This document shows, piece by piece, positions 43,697 to 57,540 of a stretch of DNA of 64,000 nucleotides. The stretch covers positions 1 to 64,000 of the forward strand of contig NZ_CP059900.1 in assembly GCF_014126825.1 (NCBI RefSeq). Reading direction: 5' to 3'. The position numbers were made by a program, and so were the translations under genes. Every line of letters begins with the position of its first letter. Position 1 is the first letter of the stretch. Origin of the DNA: Tomitella gaofuii. GTDB taxonomy: Bacteria > Actinomycetota > Actinomycetes > Mycobacteriales > Mycobacteriaceae. The notes under the pieces are model-generated. The model ran no database searches. It was not told where the DNA came from and saw only the letters and a list, made by a program, of their open reading frames with translations.

Positions 43697-44529
43697 CAGG
43701 AAAACACCTCCTCTGTGAGAAACGTCCGGGTAGCGCCAGCCAGGTGCGCAACCCGCATATCCATTTCACCACGTTCAGCAGTGAAGACCTCGAGGCCTAG
43801 TACCAATTCAGCGTCTACTGCCCACAGCTCCCGTACTAGCTCAGCAACAGGAGCGTCTCCTTGGCCGGGTGCAAGCCGGCCCGTCATCGGCACGTATTCG
43901 TCTGTGGCCGATGGCGTTCTGCGGCCGCTAATCTGTACCTCGAAAACTTGGCCTGTTTCCAGCGCGGAGAGTTCGGAGCTAGTGCCACCAACGCGGATGT
44001 GGTGCCAAGTATCAAACATAACCCCCACTGCTGACGAGTCTGCTTCTTCCATCAAACGGAGGACTGTTTCCAGGTCAGGGATCCCGGTTCCGGGTATGAA
44101 TTCCAGGCTACATCGAACTCCCGCGTGTTCCACACGACTTGCAATCTCGCTGACCGCTTCGGACATCTGATCAAAGCCTACTGTGGGATCCCCACGATAA
44201 TGAGCCACGTTCAAGGTTCGAGCACCGAGCTGCACCGCAGCTTCGAGGCAGGCGTCTAGTTCGGCGACGTCGTTTCCGAACTCCTCAGAGTGGGGGGAAC
44301 CGGGCAAATATCCCAGGAGAGCATCGATGACACCGACTGTCACTCCGGTCGCTGCCAGTCGCTCGAGCCAGTCTTCCGCTTCCCGGGCATGAATGTAGTG
44401 TCCCGGCCTGACTGAGATCTCTGGGAAGCCATGTCTCGATGCCAGTGCTGCAAGCTCAACTAGCCCGGCCTCTGGTACGGAGCCCCAGCACAGGGACGTT
44501 CTATCCAGTCGTTTCGGCAGCTGCGGCAT
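43696..44529 (-). CDS. Sugar-phosphate isomerase/epimerase-like TIM-barrel protein
   Basis: 277 residues of the AP endonuclease family 2/xylose isomerase-like fold. Metal-ligand segments are visible: Glu in SLEFIPGTGIPD near 145, FDTWHHIRVGG with Asp/His near 178, and EVFTAERGEM near 252. It likely isomerises or epimerises a sugar-like catabolic intermediate; the substrate is unknown. ATG 44529 has GGAG 9-10 nt upstream. A partial copy of its first 100 codons lies at 45943-46245. Confidence 0.82.
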   Translation of the reverse strand: MPQLPKRLDRTSLCWGSVPEAGLVELAALASRHGFPEISVRPGHYIHAREAEDWLERLAATGVTVGVIDALLGYLPGSPHSEEFGNDVAELDACLEAAVQLGARTLNVAHYRGDPTVGFDQMSEAVSEIASRVEHAGVRCSLEFIPGTGIPDLETVLRLMEEADSSAVGVMFDTWHHIRVGGTSSELSALETGQVFEVQISGRRTPSATDEYVPMTGRLAPGQGDAPVAELVRELWAVDAELVLGLEVFTAERGEMDMRVAHLAGATRTFLTEEVFS

Positions 44530-44643
44530 CGCGATACTCTCCAACTAGGCGAGATAACGTAATGGTCAGGATTAGTCAGCGAACGACGTTGCAGTAGTAG
44601 CGATTCCATCCACTGGGACACTTATTGAAGCCGAATGGAAGCG
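44231..44643. repeat. 413-bp direct repeat, copy 1
   Basis: Covers the 5' third of the TIM-barrel gene and its upstream region. It recurs at 45947-46359 with constant offset 1,716 and only a handful of substitutions. The two copies bracket the alpha/beta hydrolase gene. Confidence 0.9.
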
Positions 44644-45942: not shown

Positions 45943-46245
45943 CTATTGCACCGCTGCTTCGAGGCAGGCGTCTAGTTCGGCGACGTCGTTTCCGAACTCC
46001 TCAGAGTGGGGGGAACCGGGCAAATATCCCAGGAGAGCATCGATGACACCGACTGTCACTCCGGTCGCTGCCAGTCGCTCGAGCCAGTCTTCCGCTTCCC
46101 GGTCATGAATGTAGTGTCCCGGCCTGACTGAGATCTCTGGGAAGCCATGTCTCGATGCCAGTGCTGCAAGCTCAACTAGCCCCTCCTCTGGTACGGAGCC
46201 CCAGCACAGGGACGTTCTATCCAGTCGTTTCGGCAGCTGCGGCAT
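45943..46245 (-). pseudogene. Truncated copy of the TIM-barrel isomerase gene
   Basis: Encodes the first 100 residues of the 43696-44529 protein with very few changes (for example Glu for Ala near residue 21 and Asp for Ala near 48), then stops right where the 413-bp repeat ends. It lacks the metal-binding half and cannot be functional. Confidence 0.9.
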
Positions 46246-46359
46246 CGCGATACTCTCCAACTAGGCGAGATAACGTCATGGTCAGGATTAGTCAGCGAAC
46301 GACGTTGCAGTAGTAGCGATTCCATCCACTGGGACACTTATTGAAGCCGAATCGAAGCG
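45947..46359. repeat. 413-bp direct repeat, copy 2
   Basis: Second copy of 44231-44643, same orientation. Differences include single bases near 46105, 46184, 46281 and 46353. It contains the truncated isomerase copy and its upstream region. Confidence 0.9.
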
Positions 46360-47020: not shown

Positions 47021-47134
47021 CGGAAACGATCGCTCCAAGTCGGCAAGTTGGCCGGCCCAGCGAGAGTCAGCAGGATGACTCGAAAATCTAAAGGTTCACG
47101 AGACACCAACCCGAGGGGCGGCCGCCGCGGACGA
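47021..47134. other. Left att-like direct repeat of the 47-55 kb island
   Basis: Roughly 114 bp matching 54727-54841 in the same orientation, with one single-base indel. A perfect 26-bp core lies at 47084-47109 (beginning AAATCTAAAGGTTCACG). It ends 8 bp before the stop of the nearer recombinase gene, the classic place for an attachment site. Confidence 0.7.
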
Positions 47135-47142
47135 TGTCGTTT

Positions 47143-48195
47143 TCAGAAGTCGGCTGCACGGATGTCAGAAGTGCTCTGCACACGCCCTGTCGTCGCCGCC
47201 TCCTCGTCGAGAATCGCCAGGGTGCGTTCGAGTATCTCGTCGGCCCGTGTGCCGATGTCGTCGATGAGCGCGTCGAGTGCGGCCAGGCGGGTGTGATCAC
47301 GGCGCCGTGCGGCGATGCCGCGGTCGTAATACGCGCCGAGCCGTACCGGCTCGGCGATAGCGGTCTCGGTGGCCGGGCGCGGCCTGTCCTGGGCCGGCTC
47401 GCGCGGGGGTGGTGCGTGGCCGGGCGCGGTGCCGGTCAGGTGGGCGCGGACGATCATCCCGATCGAGGCGGCCATAAGAGGTTGCGGGGCGAGCGGCAGG
47501 TAGCCCCACCTGTCGATGCGGGTGAACACCGGTGCGACCGAGTAGCGCAGGTTCGCGGCCACGTCGGGCAGTGCGGCGCGGTCAAGCCGGTCGGCCAGGG
47601 CGCGGGTGCTCGGGTGGGTGTCGACGAACTCGAGCACCGCGGCCCACCGGTGTACGGCTGCCGCACCGTCGTCCGGCAACGTCACGGACAGTCCTGCAGT
47701 GGTCACGGCCGAATCGCCGCAGGTGAGCGCGGTCAGGTCGCGGCGGCGTAACCCGGCGATGGCGGTGAACGTCATGCCGGCGGCGGCCAGGGTCAGGAGC
47801 GCCGCGTCGCGGCGGCCGAACAGCCCGCGGGGCCAGCCCGATGCCGGCAGCGCCGCCACGACGGCGTCGACTCTATCCCGCATGCGGGCCAGGCGCGCGG
47901 CCCGGCGAGCGTCCAGGGTTTCGCGAATGGGTTCGGACCTGCCCGAGGCGGGCAGGCCACAGAGCGTGTGGGCGTGGTTGATCGCTGACATGCGGCGGCG
48001 CTGGGTCGCCGGGGTTGCCGGGTGCTCGGCGATGAACTCGGCAAGCGTCGCGGGTGCGGCTGGCAGGGCGGGTGTGTCGGTCGCGGCGCACCAGTCGGTG
48101 AACAGGGCCCAGTCGTGCCGGTAGCGGCCGGGCATGCGCAACGAGCTTGATGCCTGGTCGCCGCCGGCTTCGACGGCCTCGCCGGCGGTGGTCAT
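47143..48195 (-). CDS. Tyrosine-recombinase-like protein lacking catalytic C-terminus
   Basis: 350 residues. The first part resembles a SAM-like core-binding domain (YRHDWALFTDWCAA, AEFIAEHPATPATQRRRMSAINHAH), followed by GRRDAALLTLAAAGMTFTAIAGLRRRDLTAL, matching the start of the recombinase catalytic domain with its first Arg. The later HxxR and Tyr boxes are absent; instead there is a Pro/Arg-rich linker and a helical C-terminus (LAALDALIDDIGTRADEILERTL). It is coupled to the active recombinase upstream by an ATGA overlap, which suggests a partner or DNA-binding accessory role. Confidence 0.72.
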   Translation of the reverse strand: MTTAGEAVEAGGDQASSSLRMPGRYRHDWALFTDWCAATDTPALPAAPATLAEFIAEHPATPATQRRRMSAINHAHTLCGLPASGRSEPIRETLDARRAARLARMRDRVDAVVAALPASGWPRGLFGRRDAALLTLAAAGMTFTAIAGLRRRDLTALTCGDSAVTTAGLSVTLPDDGAAAVHRWAAVLEFVDTHPSTRALADRLDRAALPDVAANLRYSVAPVFTRIDRWGYLPLAPQPLMAASIGMIVRAHLTGTAPGHAPPPREPAQDRPRPATETAIAEPVRLGAYYDRGIAARRRDHTRLAALDALIDDIGTRADEILERTLAILDEEAATTGRVQSTSDIRAADF

Positions 48196-49358
48196 AGTCC
48201 GAGGGTGGTCACGGCGTTGCCGATCAGCGGGGCGTGTTCGCGGGCATAGACCTCGAGCATGGCGGGGCTGGCGTGGCCGGTTTGCCGCATGATCGCGTGC
48301 GCATCCGCCCCGGCCCGGAAGGCTTGGGTGACGAACCCCGCCCGCAGCGAATGCCCGCCGAGGCGAGCGACGAACCCGTCGTCATAACCGGCGGCCGCGG
48401 CGCGCCGCCGGATCATCTTGTGCACCGCCGCCCCCGACAACGCCGTGGTACTGATATGCCCGGCGCCGCGGATCGGGCGGAACACCGGGGCGCCCGGGTC
48501 CGGGATACTCGGCCAGCGGCCGTGGCACACGTGCGTATCAGGCTCGTCGGGGCTGCGCAGGAGCCGGATGATGGCGGGCCGCCCGCCGGTATCCGAAGTA
48601 GCGATGACGTGCAGCCACCGCACATACGCGCACGGGCCGCACGAGCCCGGCTCGGCCCCGTAGGGCACGGCCCGAGTAGCGCCGGTACCGTCCTGGTCGG
48701 TTTTCGACCGGCCGATCCGTAGGTGCAGCCCGTCGGTCCTGTGCCCGGTGACGTCGCCGACCGTGAGGGCGACGAGTTCGCTGCGCCGCAGGGCCGCAGC
48801 AAAGCCGAGAAGGAGCAGCGCCGCGTCGCGGCGGGCGTACACCCGCTTCGCCCACGTGTCGGATTGGGCGTCCATCGCGGCCAGGATCGTGGTGATGTCG
48901 CCGGTCAGCAGCGGGGCGACCTGGCGCACGGGCCGTTCGCCGGCGGACGCGCACGCCCGGCGGATACCGGCGAGGGTGGCGGCCACCAGCGGTGCCGAGG
49001 CCGGATTGACGTGCCCGGCGTGGTGATGATGACGTCCGATCGCCGCGGCCCAGCGGGCGAGCGTGGACGGGGCATAGACGCGTTGCCCGCTGGAGGTACG
49101 GGTCGCGGCCGCGTCGGTCATGTACGCGGCGATAATCGCCGGCGCCGCGGGCAGCGGCGTGTGCCCGCGGGCGGCGCACCAGCACGTGAAGCGGCGCCAG
49201 TCCGCGGCGTAGGCACGGCGCGTGTTCGGGGCGGCCGCGGCGTGTACCGCGTCGGCGATCCGGGCAGCATCGACCGCGGGCAGCGGCCGAGTACCAGCGC
49301 TGCTAGAAGCGCGGTCGTCGCCGGGGCGGAGGGCAGGTGGACCGTACACGGCGCTCAT
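48192..49358 (-). CDS. Tyrosine recombinase/integrase
   Basis: 388 residues. The N-terminal SAM-like domain has NTRRAYAADWRRFTCWCAARG. The catalytic residues are visible: Arg in AALRRSELVAL near 200, Lys in RSKTDQ near 225, HSLRAGF near 335, then TGHASPAMLEVY with the Tyr nucleophile near 371. It should cut and join the att-like repeats bounding the island. ATG 49358 (MSAVYGPPAL) gives a normal length. It is coupled to the degenerate recombinase that follows. Confidence 0.9.
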   Translation of the reverse strand: MSAVYGPPALRPGDDRASSSAGTRPLPAVDAARIADAVHAAAAPNTRRAYAADWRRFTCWCAARGHTPLPAAPAIIAAYMTDAAATRTSSGQRVYAPSTLARWAAAIGRHHHHAGHVNPASAPLVAATLAGIRRACASAGERPVRQVAPLLTGDITTILAAMDAQSDTWAKRVYARRDAALLLLGFAAALRRSELVALTVGDVTGHRTDGLHLRIGRSKTDQDGTGATRAVPYGAEPGSCGPCAYVRWLHVIATSDTGGRPAIIRLLRSPDEPDTHVCHGRWPSIPDPGAPVFRPIRGAGHISTTALSGAAVHKMIRRRAAAAGYDDGFVARLGGHSLRAGFVTQAFRAGADAHAIMRQTGHASPAMLEVYAREHAPLIGNAVTTLGL

Positions 49359-49855
49359 GCTAGTTGCGGCCACCGACAATCTGAGCCGGTCACCGCTTGT
49401 TAGGGGCAGTCGCCTGCCTACGCGCAGCGAATGACGTCCGAGCTGGGAGTTCACCGAATCGGGTGCGATAAGGCCAGTTATCGTGCCTCGCCCCGCACAG
49501 ATGCGCAGTGACCACCCGGAGGCGCCGGCGCGGGCCCCGCCCGGGGGCCGGTGTACGACGTGTCGCTTTCGCCGTTGCGTGTCACTTCGATGTCACTCCG
49601 GCGTGTTTCCCCAGGGCAATCGGGTCAGCCCTGGGGAGAGGGTGGGGACGTCCGAGGGGCACGGCGCGCGTGTGGGGATCCGCAGGTCATGCGGGCGCCC
49701 GGTGGACACGACCGGCCGGAACCGGCACGGACGGCGTCTGGGAGATGGCACCGGGGACCGGCATTGGCAATGCGTGCTGCCGTTCGCCTCGTGTTGTAGG
49801 CGGAGGGTGATCAGGGGCGGCTGGTGGGGGACGGGCTTCGGCCGGGGGTGAGGCG
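49359..49855. other. Noncoding stretch before recombinase genes
   Basis: 497 bp with no supported gene. A segment near 49485-49520 (CCGCACAGATGCGCAGTGACCACCC in part) resembles a shortened version of the intergenic repeat found at 50.9, 51.6 and 52.4 kb. The recombinase promoter should lie near 49360-49450. Confidence 0.4.
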
Positions 49856-50836
49856 TTATCGGTGTCGGCTGCGCCGGTGGTGGTGGAGGTCGTGGAGTGT
49901 GGAGTACACGTGTGGGCCGATCGTGTAGGCCCAGAACAGCAGGGTGCAGGCGGCCGCCGCGTCCGCGAGGATCGTGGCGGCGGGCAGTGAGAGCCTGCCT
50001 GCGTGGCTTGCGCCGAGCGCATAGACGCCCATGGAAAAAGTCGGTGGCCAGGGTGGTATGCCGCGCTGGCCACGGGTCGTGTGCAGGTGGTGCACGCTTG
50101 CCGCCAGTACGGGGATCAGGAGTGCGGACCCGATCGCCCACAGCACCACTACAGCCGCGGCGGCGATGGGCATGGTGGTGTGGTCGGCGGCCTGTGGCGC
50201 CGTGCGGCCGATCGCTGCGGCGGCGAGCCCGGCGCAGCCGGCGCCGACCCACCAGGACACGCGGGGGGTTCCGGGCTTCGGTATGCCGACGCGGCGCAGA
50301 TGGGCCGCGGCGATGACGAGCATCGTGAGGTATCCGAATACCCCGAGCGTGCAGGCCGCCAGCGGTAGCCAGGGGTGGGAGGGCAGGATGCTCGCTGTTG
50401 CGATGGCCCCGGCCAGCAGTGCGGCCGGGGCGAGGAACCATGTGCCGTCGAATGCGGGCATCCGCGAGCCGCTGCCTGCGTACCGCATCGTCAGCGATCC
50501 GAACAGTGCCAGGGTGGAGAGCCATCCCGGCAGAAAGGCGCTCCACGCGCCGATGTGCGCCAGGGTGCCGGGCTGTTCGGCGAGTCCGGTGGCGACGACC
50601 ATGAGGCCGATCGGCACGGTGAAGGCGCCGGGCGATGGCCTGCGCGTGAGCGCGGTGAGCGGCACCCCTCGCATCCGGCCGGCTATCGGGATCAGCAGTG
50701 CCTGCGTGGCCGCCAGCGCGAGCAGCGGGAGCCGCAGTGACGACAGCCCGATCAGCGGTGTGAGCTGCGAGGCGGCACCGGTGGCCATGACCGCGCCATA
50801 CGGCATGACCGACGCGGGCGGCGGATGCACCTTCAC
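49856..50836 (-). CDS. TDT/SLAC1-family membrane transporter
   Basis: 326 residues with about ten hydrophobic helices and a PPASVMPYGAVMATGAAS start typical of the tellurite-resistance/dicarboxylate transporter (TehA/SLAC1) family. A conserved PPTFSMGVYALG lies near 275 in helix 9. It may export an organic or inorganic anion. GTG 50836 is chosen where family similarity begins; an alternative start is at 50884. The C-terminus is His/Arg-rich. It is the first module of the island after the recombinases. Confidence 0.75.
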   Translation of the reverse strand: MKVHPPPASVMPYGAVMATGAASQLTPLIGLSSLRLPLLALAATQALLIPIAGRMRGVPLTALTRRPSPGAFTVPIGLMVVATGLAEQPGTLAHIGAWSAFLPGWLSTLALFGSLTMRYAGSGSRMPAFDGTWFLAPAALLAGAIATASILPSHPWLPLAACTLGVFGYLTMLVIAAAHLRRVGIPKPGTPRVSWWVGAGCAGLAAAAIGRTAPQAADHTTMPIAAAAVVVLWAIGSALLIPVLAASVHHLHTTRGQRGIPPWPPTFSMGVYALGASHAGRLSLPAATILADAAAACTLLFWAYTIGPHVYSTLHDLHHHRRSRHR

Positions 50837-50917
50837 ACCGGAAGATTCTGCCCGAAGCGGGCAATGGTCAGCCGCCGGCACCACAGATCAGATGTCACCC
50901 GATCCTGCCGCGGCCCC

Positions 50918-51009
50918 CAGACCTGCATTTGAGCATCTAGGGAACACCCACCGCACAGACCTGTTACGAAACGCGCGAGCACCCATCGGAGCGTGACGTT
51001 GGGGTCTAG
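50918..51009. repeat. Island intergenic repeat, copy A
   Basis: Its first part (GACCTGCATTTGAGCATCTA, then GGGAACACC) recurs at 52411; its second part, 50951-51009, contains CTGTTACGAAACG, CACCCAT, CGTGACGTTG and TCTAG and recurs at 51602-51660. It lies between the transporter gene and the toxin gene. Confidence 0.75.
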
Positions 51010-51031
51010 ACCGAGCTTTGGCGGAACGGCG

Positions 51032-51271
51032 TCAGTCGAGGAGTCCGAGATAGGTACGTCGCGCCTTCATCGCATGGATGACTTCGGCGGTGCCGTCGTC
51101 GTAGTGCAACACGACCAGCTCGAGAACGCGGGTGTGGGTGTCGAATCCGAGGACGAGGACTCGCTGGGGATGCTCGTCGTCGAGGGGGCCGGTGAGAAGC
51201 GGGGTGTCTGAGGCTGCACGGATGTCGCCATCGGTGATGCCGTGCTTGTACGCGGATCGGCGAATGATCAC
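51032..51271 (-). CDS. Putative toxin of a type II toxin-antitoxin pair
   Basis: 79 residues starting VIIRRSAYKHGITDGDIRAA, with RVLVLGFDTHTRVLELVV and a C-terminal EVIHAMKARRTYL. The pattern KHGxxxxDI...DD...VIHAMxAR fits a family of small proteins encoded next to ribbon-helix-helix antitoxins, distantly like BrnT. The GTG start overlaps the antitoxin stop (GTGA). A ribonuclease activity is expected from the fold but cannot be shown. Confidence 0.72.
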   Translation of the reverse strand: MIIRRSAYKHGITDGDIRAASDTPLLTGPLDDEHPQRVLVLGFDTHTRVLELVVLHYDDGTAEVIHAMKARRTYLGLLD

Positions 51272-51528
51272 GAGGCGTCGGCCCACTGGGCCAGCGCCTG
51301 CCGGATCGCCTCGGAGCGATTCAGATGTTCCCGCTTGGCGCGGGACATCACGGCCTGCAGTTCCGCATCGGTCATGCGCACGGGCACGACCTGCGCCGCA
51401 CCTTCCGCCCGTGCGGGTCGGCCCATGCGTTTTTTCAGCCACTGTGGGTCGTAGCCGGCCTCGGCCTCGCCGACCCACTGGTCGATCTGCTGCTCGGAGA
51501 CATCACGTCCCTGGATCTTCCGCTCCAT
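51268..51528 (-). CDS. Ribbon-helix-helix antitoxin
   Basis: 86 residues. The N-terminal toxin-binding helix includes SEQQIDQWVGEAEAGYDP, a basic KKRMGRPAR linker follows, and the C-terminal RHH/CopG domain is VVPVRMTDAELQAVMSRAK with NRSEAIRQALAQW. It probably represses the operon and blocks the toxin encoded immediately downstream. ATG 51528 is used. Confidence 0.8.
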   Translation of the reverse strand: MERKIQGRDVSEQQIDQWVGEAEAGYDPQWLKKRMGRPARAEGAAQVVPVRMTDAELQAVMSRAKREHLNRSEAIRQALAQWADAS

Positions 51529-51601
51529 ACCCACAATCGTAATACGAAACCATAGGGCTGGGTAGAGCATGCTGCGCTTGCGTCGGTCTGGCGTACACGC
51601 A

Positions 51602-51660
51602 CCGCGCAGGGCTGTTACGAAACGGCTGACCGCCCATGGGAACGTGACGTTGCGGCCTAG
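51602..51660. repeat. Island intergenic repeat, copy B
   Basis: 59 bp similar to 50951-51009 in the same orientation, sharing CTGTTACGAAACG, GCCCAT, CGTGACGTTG and CTAG. It lies between the antitoxin start and the membrane-protein stop. Confidence 0.75.
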
Positions 51661-51734
51661 GGCAACATCTGAAGTGGGCAGCGATGCTCTCGAAGCGCGT
51701 GAGCCAGCACGCGAAGGACAAGTGAAACTACGGT

Positions 51735-52316
51735 TCACGGTCGGGGTTGTTTTGCGTCTCCCGGCTGAGATAAGCGCATCAGCCAGAGCCCTCGAGCAAG
51801 CATGACGAGCCCGAGCCCGAGTCCCCAGCCCAGCTCGGAGAGCGCCACTCCCACACCGGCTTGCCCGGTGACATCACCGCTGGCGTCGATGCTGAAGATC
51901 GTCGCGAATCCGGCCGCGGTCCCCGCAGCCGCAGCCAGCCCACCTGATAGCGGCCAGCGCGACAGGTATGCGACGAGGAAACATGCACCGACGACGGTGA
52001 TACCGCATGCGAGTACCTGCCAGGTCGGAAACTCATTCGGCGCCGGCAACCCGGGGCCGAAGACCTCACCGTGACAGTCCGCCGACCAGCTCAGCCAAAC
52101 GATGCAGGATGCAGCGCCGAGAATCCCCGCTACCATCCCGGTCAGCCACAGGCCGAGCGAACGCGCCCTGCCTGCCGAGCAGGGTTCTATCCGCCGCCGC
52201 TCCCAGCGTCGTACGAGCCAGATGACCCCCGCGGCCAACACAGTCGGCACGACAACCAAGAACAGCACCATGGACAGGAACCGCGTTCCCGAGAAGTAAC
52301 CAGCGACAACCGTCAC
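51735..52316 (-). CDS. Hypothetical membrane protein
   Basis: 193 residues with about five membrane helices: MVLFLVVVPTVLAAGVIWLV, LWLTGMVAGILGAASCIVW, WQVLACGITVVGACFLVAYL, a Gly/Ala-rich GGLAAAAGTAAGFATIFSI and LGWGLGLGLVMLARGLWLM. Two Cys residues lie in the outer loop region. GTG 52316 with GAGAGG about 9 nt upstream is preferred over TTG 52334. No family is recognised. Confidence 0.65.
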   Translation of the reverse strand: MTVVAGYFSGTRFLSMVLFLVVVPTVLAAGVIWLVRRWERRRIEPCSAGRARSLGLWLTGMVAGILGAASCIVWLSWSADCHGEVFGPGLPAPNEFPTWQVLACGITVVGACFLVAYLSRWPLSGGLAAAAGTAAGFATIFSIDASGDVTGQAGVGVALSELGWGLGLGLVMLARGLWLMRLSQPGDAKQPRP

Positions 52317-52409
52317 CTCTGCATCCTCTCCCAAAGGAGGGTCCCCGCACGTCTTGAAGCGATCCGCTGGTCCCGGTCGTCCGTATATCTAGGACCTTCC
52401 CTAGATGCA

Positions 52410-52485
52410 CAGACCTGCATTTGAGCATCTAGGGAACACCTACTGCACAGATCTGTTATGAAACGCTCGACCACCCATTGAACCG
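52410..52485. repeat. Island intergenic repeat, copy C
   Basis: Matches 50918-50993: GACCTGCATTTGAGCATCTA then GGGAACACC, GCACAGA, CTGTTATGAAACG and GACCACCCAT. It is preceded by the near-palindrome CTAGGACCTTCCCTAG. It lies between the membrane-protein start and the DUF2332 stop. Confidence 0.75.
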
Positions 52486-52587
52486 CCCCGGCATGTCCGG
52501 AGACTCGGATTGTTGGGAGAGTGGGAGTCATGCCAGGGAACACGACACGCCGGGGGGATTCACGCCCGTCCGTAGGGATTGGTGAGA

Positions 52588-53607
52588 TCAGCTGGCGAGC
52601 CAGTCGAGAGTTTGTCCGTGTCCGCCGGCGTAGGCCAGGGGCGTGCTGTCGAGGGTGACGACGAACTGCCCGCGGGTCTCGGAGACAGATTTCGGGAGCC
52701 GGGTGGTCACGGGCTCGATGACGACAGCACCTTCGTTGCTCACCCAATGACAGGGCAACTCCCGGACTGTGTGCTCGAAGGTGCGTCGTGCGGCGGGGTC
52801 TATGTAGTTGAGGACGGCGCTACCGAAAACAACAACGGTCGTGCCGGGCGGTGCTGCGCAGACAAGGTCTGTAATCGTGTCGGTCAGGTCCCCGGTGGTC
52901 ACGCGCGGCGGCTCGTTGCGCGCGATCTTGGCGGCAGAGCGTAATCGCCGGAGACGTTCGTCTTGTCCGGGCCACACAAGCGCTTCGAGCCAGCGCATGT
53001 CGTCGTCGCTATGCGGGTCCAGCGGGTTCACATCGACCCCGGCGCGGTAGGCCACCTCCGGGAGCGCCGTGGGCAGCGGTGCGTTGCCTGAGACGGTGCA
53101 CGGCAGCACGACCGGGGATCGGCCCGTCTGCGGGTCGATCTCCCGCACCGCACCCTTCTGACCCGTCATGGTGTAGCGGTAACTGAATCGGTCCGGGAAC
53201 AAGCACAGCCCCGCCGAAGCACCGACCTCGATCAGCGACAATGGCTCTTGCAACGATGCGAGTATCGGCAACAACACCGCGGCGCGACCGCACTCGTTGG
53301 TCTGGGTGCTGCGGGTGCGGGCCATCGCGCCCACAGCTTCCCAGTGCGTGAGCAGCCACGCTCTGAACTCCGGAAACGACGATTCGGGAACACCGAGATA
53401 GCGGGCAGCGCCGAGCACGAGATTCGGCTGCCGCTTCGCCAGAGGTAGCTGATCGATCAGCCCGATCAACGCCGGATCATCGGCGATGCCGCGGCACCAT
53501 TGCTCATAGACGGGTGAGTTGCCGTGTGCCTCGTACTCGGCGAACAACCGGTACCTGCGAGCGGTATCCATGACCAGATCATGCTCCGCCGGCGTCAGCG
53601 ACACCAT
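52588..53607 (-). CDS. DUF2332 family protein
   Basis: 339 residues, cytoplasmic. DUF2332 landmarks are YRLFAEYEAHGNSPVYEQWC near 20-40, RTRSTQTNECGRAAVLLP near 97, LSLIEVGASAGLCLFPDRFSY near 122 with a Rossmann-like EVGASAG, and RWLEALVWPGQDERLRRL near 205. The glycine-rich strand resembles SAM-dependent methyltransferases, but no substrate is known. It is divergent from the GrpB-like gene in the island. Confidence 0.85.
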   Translation of the reverse strand: MVSLTPAEHDLVMDTARRYRLFAEYEAHGNSPVYEQWCRGIADDPALIGLIDQLPLAKRQPNLVLGAARYLGVPESSFPEFRAWLLTHWEAVGAMARTRSTQTNECGRAAVLLPILASLQEPLSLIEVGASAGLCLFPDRFSYRYTMTGQKGAVREIDPQTGRSPVVLPCTVSGNAPLPTALPEVAYRAGVDVNPLDPHSDDDMRWLEALVWPGQDERLRRLRSAAKIARNEPPRVTTGDLTDTITDLVCAAPPGTTVVVFGSAVLNYIDPAARRTFEHTVRELPCHWVSNEGAVVIEPVTTRLPKSVSETRGQFVVTLDSTPLAYAGGHGQTLDWLAS

Positions 53608-53816
53608 GCACGATGGCGCGCATCGTCACCGGAACCCGTCGCCAGCGCGGAACATTGGGCAGCAGAGACAGACTGCAGTTTCGCTGTTCGACCTCTCCCA
53701 GGACGGGTAACCATCCGCTCGCAAGGCTGAATCAACTACCACAGGCAAACCGCTCGGGCTCATGCCCCGCAGCCACGGGCCCCCGAGCGCTCGCTCCTCA
53801 TGGAACACTGACGATT

Positions 53817-54371
53817 ATGTCTCCGGAACGCGACGAGCGCCGTCACGCGGCCGCTGAAGATCTGGCAGACGCCGGCGGCCACGATGCGCCGATCCGGATT
53901 GTGCGCTACAGGGACGACTGGCCGCGTCAGTTCGTCGCAGAAGCAGAACGACTACGCCCGTTCGTGCCCGACCTTGTCTTCCACCACATCGGATCGACCG
54001 CCGTGCCCGGGCTTGCGGCAAAGCCAGTGATCGACCTGATGGCGTTCGCCGAGAAGCCGGACATGCTAGTGGAAGAGATCATCGCGGCCGGGTACCAGTA
54101 CCCCCGCGCCTACAATGCTGTGCTCGGTGCACGGCGATGGTTCTGCCGGCCATCGGCAGCCGTGCGCACACATCACCTCCACCTCGTGGCAGACCGCGAC
54201 GAGCTGGACCGCAACCTCCACATCCGTGACGTGCTCCGTACGCGGGAAGACCTCGCTGATGAATACGCGGCGTTGAAGCGCGACCTGGCACGATCGGCGA
54301 ACGCTGACCGGGAAGGCTACACAGCCGGTAAGACTGCTTTCATCGGACGCATCGGGAACCTGACTTTGTAA
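53817..54371 (+). CDS. GrpB family protein (UPF0157)
   Basis: 184 residues. The nucleotidyltransferase-like GrpB fold is shown by IRIVRYRDDWPRQFVAEAERL near 25, FHHIGSTAVPGLAAKPVIDLM near 60 and HHLHLVADRDELDRNL near 115. GrpB proteins are of uncertain function; some relatives act on CoA or small molecules. ATG 53817 lacks a clear Shine-Dalgarno sequence, so leaderless translation is possible. It is the only plus-strand gene in the island. Confidence 0.87.
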   Translation: MSPERDERRHAAAEDLADAGGHDAPIRIVRYRDDWPRQFVAEAERLRPFVPDLVFHHIGSTAVPGLAAKPVIDLMAFAEKPDMLVEEIIAAGYQYPRAYNAVLGARRWFCRPSAAVRTHHLHLVADRDELDRNLHIRDVLRTREDLADEYAALKRDLARSANADREGYTAGKTAFIGRIGNLTL

Positions 54372-54486
54372 GCAGGTGGGGACATTCAACGCTCGATCTA
54401 CGGAAGTCTGTCGGCGCGCTCGTGCAGTTCAATACACCCGAACCAGTGGGCATCTAGAACGATCCCTACATACACACATCTGAACG

Positions 54487-54516
54487 TGTGCATCTAGGCC
54501 ACACCCCAGATGCACA
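54487..54516. repeat. Inverted repeat in island intergenic DNA (copy D-like)
   Basis: TGTGCATCT at 54487-54495 and AGATGCACA at 54508-54516 form a perfect 9-bp inverted repeat. Neighbouring GCATCTAG words (54449, 54490) and ACCTAGGG (54542) echo the intergenic repeats of the island. Confidence 0.55.
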
Positions 54517-54726
54517 GTCCGGCGTGAGCGAACCCAAGTGTACCTAGGGCCGCGACCGAGATAGATGCACACTTCCGCCCGGGGCCAGACATGACGGGTC
54601 AGGAAGAGCCACGGCGCCGACCCTGCCGATCACGGTAGGGCCGGCGTCGTCTGTTTCGACCCCGGCCGCTTCTCTCGACCGGGGCATGGACAATAACAGA
54701 ACGTGAGTTCGATAGACGCCGGCCGC

Positions 54727-54841
54727 CGGAAATGATCGTTTCTGGGCGGCGAGGTGGCCAGCCCGGCGAGAACGGGCGAGATGACTCATAAATCTAAAGG
54801 TTCACGAGACACCAAGCCGAGGGGGTGGCCGCCGCGGACGA
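54727..54841. other. Right att-like direct repeat of the island
   Basis: Matches 47021-47134 with the 26-bp perfect core at 54790-54815. Homology stops immediately on the right side, as at the left copy. This marks the far edge of the 7.7-kb island carrying the recombinase pair. Confidence 0.7.
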
Positions 54842-55149
54842 CCTGGGCGGCAACGGGCCGGAGACTGTCTTGTGAACGCGTACCGCCGACATGCGTCTCA
54901 GTCGTGATGCTCCCTGGGGGTTGTCGAGGCGTACGGGCCGGCATGAGGCTCCTCGGGTACACGCGGGTCACCACGGGGTGGGTTGCGGCGGGCTGCGTGG
55001 TGCGTGATCGTGCTGGTGGCGGCGAGGTTGGCCGTGTGCGGCCATCTTGCTAGAGTTGTGGTGTAGCCACCCCATCGCGGTGGGGTTGGAAGTGAGCCGC
55101 AGGATTACTCGCCGGACGACGAGGCCTGCGGCTCGCGTCGTCTCTTCGG
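54842..55149. other. Intergenic stretch right of the island
   Basis: 308 bp without a supported gene. No repeat or RNA gene is evident. Confidence 0.4.
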
Positions 55150-55704
55150 TCACACGTGGTGGAGCTCGACGGCGTTGCCGAGCGCGGCGAGGTAGTCGGC
55201 GTTGCCGACACGGGACTGCACGACGGCGCCGCAGACGATGTCGGCGACCGCCAATGCTGGCTCTGCCCGTCCGATCGCGTGATCGATCCGCAGGCCTGCG
55301 GAAACGACCTTTTGGGCACGGAACTTCTGCAACAGGTCGGTGTCGCTGCGGTCGAGTTGGCCGCGGGACTCGAAGGTGATCTGGCTGCACGGCATGTTGG
55401 CGAGGTTCGGCAAGAGGTACTCGAGGCACTTGCGGCGGTGGCGCCGATCGGCGGCGCCGGACTCGCTGCGGACGACGACGAACCCGGCCACCGGCAGGGT
55501 GGCGACGGCGTCGATCAGGTCCTGGCGGCGGGCATCGCTGCTGCCATGCCAGTGCACCTTCTTCTCGCCGGGAAGACGCAGCTCGCTCATCGCCGCGCGC
55601 AGCGCGGGTATGTCGTCTGCTTCGCAGAGCGCCGCCGCGATGAGGTAGGTGCCGGGGTCACGGTCTGGCTGCGAGCCGCTCTCATCGGCCCACGCGGTGA
55701 GCAC
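55150..55704 (-). CDS. DUF3800 domain protein
   Basis: 184 residues from GTG 55704. The early Asp/Glu in AWADESGSQ is the DUF3800 hallmark, with later VHWHGSSDARRQDLI, VVVRSES and SAGLRIDHAIGRAEPALAVADIVCGAV. DUF3800 proteins have an RNase H-like fold with acidic residues and are common in mobile and defence DNA; their activity is not established. It is coupled to the upstream hypothetical gene by a 1-bp overlap. Confidence 0.8.
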   Translation of the reverse strand: MLTAWADESGSQPDRDPGTYLIAAALCEADDIPALRAAMSELRLPGEKKVHWHGSSDARRQDLIDAVATLPVAGFVVVRSESGAADRRHRRKCLEYLLPNLANMPCSQITFESRGQLDRSDTDLLQKFRAQKVVSAGLRIDHAIGRAEPALAVADIVCGAVVQSRVGNADYLAALGNAVELHHV

Positions 55705-56141
55705 TACCGGTCGTGCTCTGTGGCCGCGGGGGGAGCATCAGCGGGTGGGGCAGCGTGGCGGCGTCCGCGGTTGCCGATGATCTCGGTGCCCGCGTCGAGA
55801 TCGATGCACAGGACGTCGTCGTCCATGCGGGCCGGGTACCGGCGCGAGATCGTCGTATCGATGTCGTAGAACGCGGTGAACGCCGAACCGGCCACCATCA
55901 CCGGACCGGTGCCGGCGCTGCGGCCAGCTCCGCGTACCGCGTAGCCGTGCGGCACGTCGTCGCCGACGCCGCGGATGCCGACGATGCCGCCCTCGCGGTC
56001 GTAGAGTAGTTCCACGCACTCGGGGGCGTCCATGAGCGTGTAGGCGGCGCGGTTGATCGAAATGACGCCGCGTTTCTGGATGCTCACCGACGGTGCCCGC
56101 CGCAGGGACGTGTTGCGCTTGTCGAACACCTCGAATGCCAT
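55704..56141 (-). CDS. Hypothetical protein, partner of DUF3800 gene
   Basis: 145 residues. The start MAFEVFDKRNTSLRRAPSVS has a KRGVISINRAAYTLM motif and an AFYDIDTTISRRYPAR segment; the tail is Pro/Ala-rich. A strong GGAGGTGG precedes the ATG. It overlaps the DUF3800 gene, so the two likely act together. No family function is known to me. Confidence 0.65.
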   Translation of the reverse strand: MAFEVFDKRNTSLRRAPSVSIQKRGVISINRAAYTLMDAPECVELLYDREGGIVGIRGVGDDVPHGYAVRGAGRSAGTGPVMVAGSAFTAFYDIDTTISRRYPARMDDDVLCIDLDAGTEIIGNRGRRHAAPPADAPPAATEHDR

Positions 56142-56342
56142 CTGCCACCTCCAGAAGGTGATGCTATCGCAGTCGCATGCACCGGTACCTATACGGCATC
56201 AACAGACGTCTAAGGCGGACGACGTGCGCGTGCTTGCAGAGCAGGAGATACCGGTCTGCAGATATGCATCGCTCCCATCGCCTCCAACGCGCACAAGACG
56301 TCATATAGCGATACTTATCGCCCTTCATGTGCTATAGAATTA

Positions 56343-56421
56343 GTGACAGATTATGTGACAGTGCCGAGCGCTCTGGCGCACTTGGCGAGGACTGTCACGT
56401 GAACGGTCGTATAAGTGACAG
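56343..56421. promoter_or_regulatory. TGTCAC half-sites upstream of serine recombinase
   Basis: GTGACAG occurs at 56343-56349, 56355-56361 and 56415-56421, with the inverse CTGTCAC at 56392-56398. This clustered pattern immediately before the recombinase start suggests a res-type recombination or autoregulatory site. The rest of 56142-56445 holds no gene. Confidence 0.55.
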
Positions 56422-56445
56422 TGGGTGGAAGGGGAGTGGTCGGCG

Positions 56446-57540
56446 GTGTGGGTGGGCTATGCGCGGGTGTCGAAGGACGACGGATCGCAGTCGACCGCTC
56501 TGCAACGCGACGCACTCCTCGAGGCCGGCGTCGACGAGCGGGTGATCTACGAGGACCGGGCGTCGGGAGCGAAGGCCGACCGGCCCCTGTTGGAAGCGTG
56601 CCTGCGCTCGCTGCGCGAAGGCGACACCCTGGTGGTGTGGAAGCTCGACCGGCTCGGCCGGAGTCTGCGGCATCTGGTGACGATCGTCGAGGACCTCACC
56701 GACAGGGGAGTGGGCATCAAGGTGCTCAGCGGGCAGGGTGCGGCGATCGACACCACCACGGCATCGGGCAAGCTCGTGTTCGGGATCTTCGCGGCGCTCG
56801 CGGAGTTCGAACGCGAACTCATCTCCGAGCGCACCAAGGCGGGGTTGGCGTCGGCGAGGGCCCGGGGGCGTCGGGGTGGCCGCCCGTACAAGATGACGCC
56901 GGCGAAGCTGCGTCTGGCGATGGCGGCGATGGCGGATAGGGACACGCATGTCGGGGCGTTGTGTGTGGAGCTCGACATCACCCGGCAGACGCTCTACCGG
57001 CACGTGTCACCTACAGGGGAGCTGCGCGAAGATGGGCGCAAACTCCTGGCGGAGCGGCCCGCGGTGGCCGCGCCACGCTCGGGTGCGTCGGCCCGCCCCG
57101 ACAGCGACGGCGCCACGCCGCATGCTGAGCAGGCCGGCCCGGTGGCCCGCCGGTCAGACCATGCCGGGGAAGTGCCCGTGGTCACAGCGCGGGTGCAGCC
57201 CGGGGCGAAAGGCGACGATGGCGCCGCCGGGACGGCGGATGAGTTAGCGTGTCCAGGATGTGGGTATCGGCCGACCCGGCCGCGTGATCTCATCCCGCAC
57301 CGTGAGGACCTGGCCACGGTGTGGCTGCACGTCGACGGCGACCTGGTGTCCGAGGGGCGGCATTGCGCCCGTTGCCAGCCCCACGACCGGGTCCGCGCGA
57401 TTACGTGCAGCCGGTGCGGTGACGGGCCGCTGCTGACCGGGACAGGTGGCGGCGGAGTGCTGCCTGCGGCGGCGGCCGACTGGCTGCGCCACCACGGGTG
57501 GACGACGACGCCGGAGCTGATCTGCGATGACCATGCTTGA
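56446..57540 (+). CDS. Serine recombinase (resolvase/invertase) with Cys-rich C-terminus
   Basis: 364 residues. The resolvase domain has the catalytic Ser in GYARVSKDD near residue 9, LDRLGRSLRHLV near 68 and FGIFAALAEFERELISERT near 110-130. The HTH_7 DNA-binding region includes ALCVELDITRQTLYRHV near 180. Beyond about 190 there is a disordered linker and a zinc-finger-like tail with ACPGCGYR, HCARCQPHDR, CSRCGDGPLL and CDDH. GTG 56446 has AAGGGGAG 9 nt upstream; GTG 56425 is the alternative. The Cys-rich tail is unusual for a Tn3-type resolvase. Confidence 0.87.
   Translation: MWVGYARVSKDDGSQSTALQRDALLEAGVDERVIYEDRASGAKADRPLLEACLRSLREGDTLVVWKLDRLGRSLRHLVTIVEDLTDRGVGIKVLSGQGAAIDTTTASGKLVFGIFAALAEFERELISERTKAGLASARARGRRGGRPYKMTPAKLRLAMAAMADRDTHVGALCVELDITRQTLYRHVSPTGELREDGRKLLAERPAVAAPRSGASARPDSDGATPHAEQAGPVARRSDHAGEVPVVTARVQPGAKGDDGAAGTADELACPGCGYRPTRPRDLIPHREDLATVWLHVDGDLVSEGRHCARCQPHDRVRAITCSRCGDGPLLTGTGGGGVLPAAAADWLRHHGWTTTPELICDDHA

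Follow-up and report, generated by a model that had tools for sequence, protein, structure and literature searches.

Do the related intergenic repeats that separate small gene modules beside two tyrosine recombinase genes in Tomitella gaofuii mark a cassette array, and if so, of what kind? The stretch analysed here (the window, 64 kb) is the start of a single contig of 4.35 Mb. The initial annotation had placed three repeat copies between successive small modules, and this is confirmed: repeat A runs from 50918 (to 51012), repeat B covers approximately 51587–51663 and repeat C starts at 52410 (at 52383 if an adjoining palindrome is included, ending at 52485), all on the plus strand and hence as direct repeats. 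One detail required correction, as C contains CTGTTATGAAACG and not CTGTTACGAAACG.

Four repeat copies with a common core

A search of the genome with positions 50900–51020 as the query gave four matches at E ≤ 0.001, namely A itself, C (E = 1.0e-21; 91% over 69 bases), an extra copy D on the minus strand at C1:2393894–2393966 (E = 1.0e-15; 84% to A) and B (E = 7.5e-11; 78% to A). The pattern TGTYAYGAAACG-N4-8-SCRCCCAT occurs four times in this genome (reversed control, 0) and is absent from the 300 other family genomes searched, leaving T. gaofuii as the only one of 301. With blastn, the repeat query matched 2 of 401 family genomes, one being its own and the other showing a short match in an ftsY-like frame; within the genus, only its own genome of five was matched, and none of the four relatives. 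A profile built solely from the four sequences (R1) scores 66–77 bits on these copies, and its best scores outside are 24.0 bits among 201 family genomes and 24.4 bits among 394 class genomes; at E ≤ 1 it finds some match in 182 of the 201 family genomes, so such matches carry little meaning. Scanning actinobacterial genomes with a repeat profile, as had been proposed, therefore returned only chance-level matches outside the genome of origin.

Individual outside matches were also inspected, and all were taken as chance. The 24.0-bit match (G110) is intergenic by eye and lies in a stretch unmatched in 17 other genomes of its genus, the 24.4-bit match (G415) falls within an ABC-transporter-like frame, and two others fall within an ftsY-like frame (27 bases; L005) and a thyX-like frame (L099), these gene names being read from the frames. 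No viral contig matched the core pattern; the palindrome had a single viral match, in the form of a hairpin on a phage-like contig of low GC. In a plasmid search, A had no match and B one, at E 0.7 only. Rfam models at gathering scores identified only two tRNAs across the window, and at E up to 5 nothing in 50800–52650. The repeats are thus few, beyond chance and not found elsewhere in the genomes sampled, and the concern that they might be ordinary promoters or terminators scattered throughout the genome is answered by their number. A coding origin of the core was considered and is not supported: differences between copies, summed over six pairs by position modulo 3, number 16, 32 and 25, with an excess that misses the third position of either frame open in all four copies, and the minus-strand frame that would fit has a stop in C, although it is open in the other three copies.

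For comparison of the copies, alignment on CTGTTACGAAACG set the register, and z scores were taken against shuffles. The core (−20 to +27, approximately 45 bases) is common to all six pairs of copies (z 8.2–11.2). Only A and C have the left arm (−46 to −20) in common (z 9.3; −0.8 to 2.2 in the remaining five pairs), with ungapped counts of 24/25 for A–C, 10/25 for A–B and 5/25 for A–D. The right arm (+27 to +57) unites A, B and D (z 5.6–7.2) and leaves out C (pairs containing it, −0.9 to −0.1), with counts of 21/26 for A–D, 18/26 for both A–B and B–D, and 8/26 for A–C. A is hence the two-armed form, left-core-right, its left arm at approximately 50918–50940; B and D are core-right, B lacking the left arm of the A/C type; and C comprises the palindrome (52383–52410), left arm and core, and lacks the right arm common to the other three. 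The module flanked by B and C is bordered by a right arm on its left and a left arm on its right. Taken together, these forms resemble attP, attL and attR. Judged from four copies, the mosaic arms would be the product of site-specific exchange. Three of the breakpoints, however, would fall at separate positions (the left palindrome, the core's left edge and its right edge), which speaks against one crossover point, and with four copies, truncation and divergence could mimic arm exchange.

A weaker trace of the repeat had also been noted at 54.45–54.55 kb. It is real as a left arm, but the core is missing and the core profile misses the site. This left-arm site (54448–54545, plus strand) contains two palindromes of the form GTGCATCTAG-N8-CTAGATGCAC (54448–54475 and 54488–54515), and C matches 54452–54505 at 76% over 54 bases. 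Downstream of the arm, there is no significant likeness to the right half of A–D (eight comparisons, p 0.023 to 0.97), and a shared origin of these parts was rejected as not significant. The left-arm site may be a res-type site with three subsites: its spacings recall res by eye, but the third subsite is not seen in A–D. Allowing ≤3 mismatches, the palindrome occurs three times in the T. gaofuii genome, each time within the window. Of 250 other family genomes, 9 have it; the reversed control is commoner, so single matches mean little. A genus relative (G002) matches window positions 54450–54756 at 88%, starting at the palindrome; to the left of it, that genome has a different frame of 121 aa, and the window has GrpB. 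In both of these genomes of the genus, the left arm coincides with a junction. Near its relative of this site, G002 also harbors, at L094 6400–13008, a Tn7-type-transposase-like set with an integrase-core-like protein and an AAA ATPase, for which Pfam matches are below cut-offs.

Modules and recombinase genes

To the left of A lies a membrane-protein-like gene (49856–50884, minus strand) with no Pfam match and an uncertain start. The A–B module consists of a ribbon-helix-helix (RHH, CopG family) gene, the probable antitoxin (51268–51528, minus strand; start picked by eye), and a small BrnT/DUF4258-like partner, the probable toxin (51032–51271, minus strand; both matches below the Pfam cut-off). 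The B–C module is a single membrane-protein-like gene (51735–52334, minus strand) with a weak DUF4184 match below cut-off. To the right of C are a DUF2332 gene (52588–53607, minus strand) and a GrpB-family gene (53613–54371, plus strand, the frame as listed; its true start is probably further right). Five of these six cargo genes point towards the recombinases. Each of A, B and C is upstream of a minus-strand gene, at distances from the start codon that vary from approximately 55 to 115 bases (by eye), and the two genes on either side of D diverge. On one side, D is flanked by a carboxylase-like gene, and on the other by a two-gene module of an excisionase-type HTH protein and a DUF6036 nucleotidyltransferase that appears to recall AbiEi/AbiEii-type pairs. 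An empty site for D was sought in the genus relatives, which have only paralogous pieces in common with this region, too little to serve. Relatives of the A–B pair are present on Dietzia plasmids; in the two, out of five, that were compared (77–79% over 527 bases), the likeness covers the genes alone, and neither plasmid has a repeat within 3 kb of them. A distant RHH and toxin pair (50–51% protein identity) on a Rhodococcus ruber plasmid (L079, 3973–6501) adjoins a relative of rec1–rec2.

The adjacent recombinase genes, rec1 (48192–49454) and rec2 (47143–48195), are both on the minus strand. The former is a tyrosine recombinase with catalytic motifs, Cre-like in a PDB search (best E against Cre, 2.3e-7), and the latter, by sequence comparison, is its relative without the HxxR motif. 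The catalytic motifs of rec1 are present in 22 of 22 sequences compared, and HxxR is missing from rec2 in 21 of 22. Relatives of rec1 were found in 260 plasmid records, 110 of them from Rhodococcus, and at 49 genome-contig loci, a count that includes some loci cut by contig ends and several near-identical strains. The order tniA-tniB-tniQ-rec1-rec2 is present at 18 of these 49 loci, and at least tniQ precedes rec1 at 20. With up to three mismatches, 17 of 18 loci examined have a TGTC..TTTCAGAAG repeat approximately 130 bases ahead of tniA, and 4 of 21 (L006, L008, L034 and L055) have one after rec2; L034 has both ends. Beside the rec1–rec2 pair of the window, tniA, tniB and tniQ are absent, and one end of this type is found, the Tn402-type terminal repeat TGTCGTTTTCAGAAG at 47135–47149 (plus strand), which overlaps the end of rec2; there is no convincing second within the window. 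The locus is filed as a remnant of a Tn402-like transposon, and gene order suggests that rec1 and rec2 were its cointegrate-resolution genes. The combination of tniA-tniB-tniQ with a tandem pair of an intact Cre-like recombinase and a partner without HxxR is seen at many actinobacterial loci, mostly in Rhodococcus (L013–L021, L027–L034, L040, L043, L048 and L056), and this tni-linked tandem pair may be an unusual cointegrate-resolution module.

The site of rec1–rec2 is probably the palindrome CGATAA-N6-TTATCG at 49461–49487 (GGGTGCGATAAGGCCAGTTATCGTGCC), upstream of rec1. Of 46 sequences scanned, window included, five have such a palindrome on the rec1 side (the window, L006 and L009, with less exact versions in L011 and L041), and the other 41 showed none near rec1; the recombinase locus of L006 is 85% identical to that of the window, with the same palindrome. 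It is this palindrome, and not a copy of A–C, that accounts for the further repeat trace reported at 49.49 kb: the core profile misses the stretch, and when A, B, C and the 54.45-kb site were aligned locally to 49400–49860, nothing exceeded the reporting limit of z 2.2. No A–D-like sequence was seen at the approximately 50 related recombinase loci scanned, and the sole link of the recombinases to the repeats is adjacency. Other tyrosine recombinases are present elsewhere in the genome, none of them linked to A–D; three adjacent tyrosine-recombinase-like frames (429, 428 and 676 aa) at G000:C1:94577–96965 are possibly a trio. The look of a cassette array that was originally remarked upon thus survives in the compact modules, exchanged arms and small number of repeats, but not in the recombinases, which have a Tn402-like context and a palindrome of their own.

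Origin of the array

We tentatively favor, at somewhat below even confidence, a reading of A–D as attachment-like scars from the serial insertion of small modules. The four copies would be diverged forms of a single attachment-like site of recombination, built from a core of approximately 45 bases and two separable arms, within which small modules (the membrane-protein gene, the toxin-antitoxin-like pair) would have been added serially by recombination, each junction keeping the core and joining the left arm of one unit to the right arm of the next. Were the B–C module to leave as a circle, the ends joined in it would form an A-like left-core-right site. On this reading, exchange would have been site-specific, single modules would have moved, and an enzyme that may since have been lost would have done the work. 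The number of copies far above chance, their mosaic arms, the compact one- and two-gene modules, the position of D beside a two-gene module far away and the recurrence of the 54.45-kb left-arm site in G002 all support this reading. Against it stand the Dietzia relatives of the A–B pair, which have no repeat close by, the chance level of outside profile matches, the lack of a recombinase tied to the site and breakpoints that are untidy for one crossover point.

It is distinctly possible, if on balance doubtful, that the repeats are instead pieces of a plasmid backbone or regulatory segment that duplication, nested insertion and homologous recombination have scattered, with ordinary accessory genes as the modules and no dedicated system. 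The surroundings are a visible patchwork. Positions 54638–57041 are 91% identical to a Tomitella fengzijianii plasmid, and a 115-base plasmid-backbone segment occurs twice on the plus strand (47021–47134 and 54727–54841, 82%), its left copy being cut where the Tn402-type end starts; in the 14 kb of the T. fengzijianii plasmid compared, there is one copy. These two copies bracket the recombinases and the cargo. A serine-recombinase gene occupies 56425–57540; Tn402-like transposons tend to insert near resolvase sites. As a side observation further left, a 300-base duplication (44231–44530 and 45947–46246, 99%) flanks an alpha/beta-hydrolase-like gene. Duplication with homologous recombination in such a patchwork could well explain much of the same evidence as the attachment-like reading, and left-arm palindromes are also found without a core; yet arms re-paired around a conserved core are not what pure duplication readily yields, and neither is copy D, 2.3 Mb away with its own small module. 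That the repeats are operators or promoters of the module genes would suit the placement of A, B and C upstream of minus-strand genes and of D between divergent ones. It is nevertheless unlikely, with just four copies genome-wide, unequal distances to the start codons and exchanged arms that an operator does not need; a scan for one promoter type found no sigma-70-type site in 49400–54800, and the four terminator-like sites in that interval (1.7 expected) all lie outside the repeats.

Action of the Cre-like rec1–rec2 pair on A–D and the left-arm palindromes, as in a lox-type cassette array, draws on adjacency, on the likeness of rec1 to Cre and on palindromes with lox-like arms and spacer. We regard it as very unlikely, given that the rec1 family resides in Tn402-like transposons with tniA-tniB-tniQ, that the palindrome by rec1 has another sequence and that the related loci scanned showed no A–D-like sequence. 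A true integron, with A–D as attC sites served by an integron integrase, would likewise fit small modules between repeats beside tyrosine recombinases and is barely credible: no protein of the genome scores over the cut-off of TIGR02249 (20 weaker matches; 14 control genomes likewise have none over cut-off), A–D fold no better than shuffles (eight strands, z −0.43 to 0.84) and the cargo is read mostly towards the recombinases, unlike in a classical integron. The view that the repeats do not match integron attC sites has thus held in the folding and integrase tests, on which the attC identity of A–D is rejected; for the attC core boxes, the comparison was purely visual.

To return to the attachment-like reading, its broadest form, a non-integron gene-cassette capture system of actinobacteria in which a two-armed core site adds and removes single genes and toxin-antitoxin pairs, with D as a secondary insertion, is rather improbable. 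If single genes are indeed gained and lost at these sites, actinobacteria would have cassette-like gene capture outside integrons, and the two-armed copy A offers a way to assay directly for the missing enzyme. Otherwise, the region remains an example of the chromosomal build-up of plasmid pieces, a Tn402-like remnant and toxin-antitoxin genes, and illustrates that recombinase adjacency is weak evidence for a cassette array.

Comparison with known systems

In the open-licence literature, we found no description of the A–D repeat array or of tandem tyrosine recombinases in Tn402-like transposons. Tn402/Tn5053-like transposons usually carry a serine resolvase gene for resolution. Relatives of rec1–rec2 share with these elements the tniA-tniB-tniQ order and the TGTC..TTTCAGAAG ends, as the window does the end at 47135; they differ in using a pair of tyrosine-recombinase relatives for resolution, and the window differs further in having no tni genes alongside. 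Other actinobacterial tandem tyrosine recombinases, related to Tn554, are described in PMC3414803.

Integron cassette arrays are similar in their small modules between related repeats beside tyrosine recombinases, and dissimilar in integrase, attC-like folding and gene direction, as set out above. The pdif (dif) modules of Acinetobacter plasmids also place small modules, toxin-antitoxin genes included, between recombination sites. The T. gaofuii copies A, B and C exceed them in length and share one orientation, whereas pdif sites are short XerCD sites of alternating orientation, and no XerCD-type sites bound the modules, the lone CGATAA-N6-TTATCG palindrome adjoining rec1 rather than lying between modules. 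Arrays formed by tandem accretion of integrative elements and CIMEs have attL, attI and attR sites, a core whose arms can be exchanged, a series of consecutive units and units without an integrase of their own. The units described here differ in comprising one or two genes, with no integrase or transfer genes within the array; they resemble such arrays in the common core, in the arms exchanged among four copies and in the succession of units in a row.
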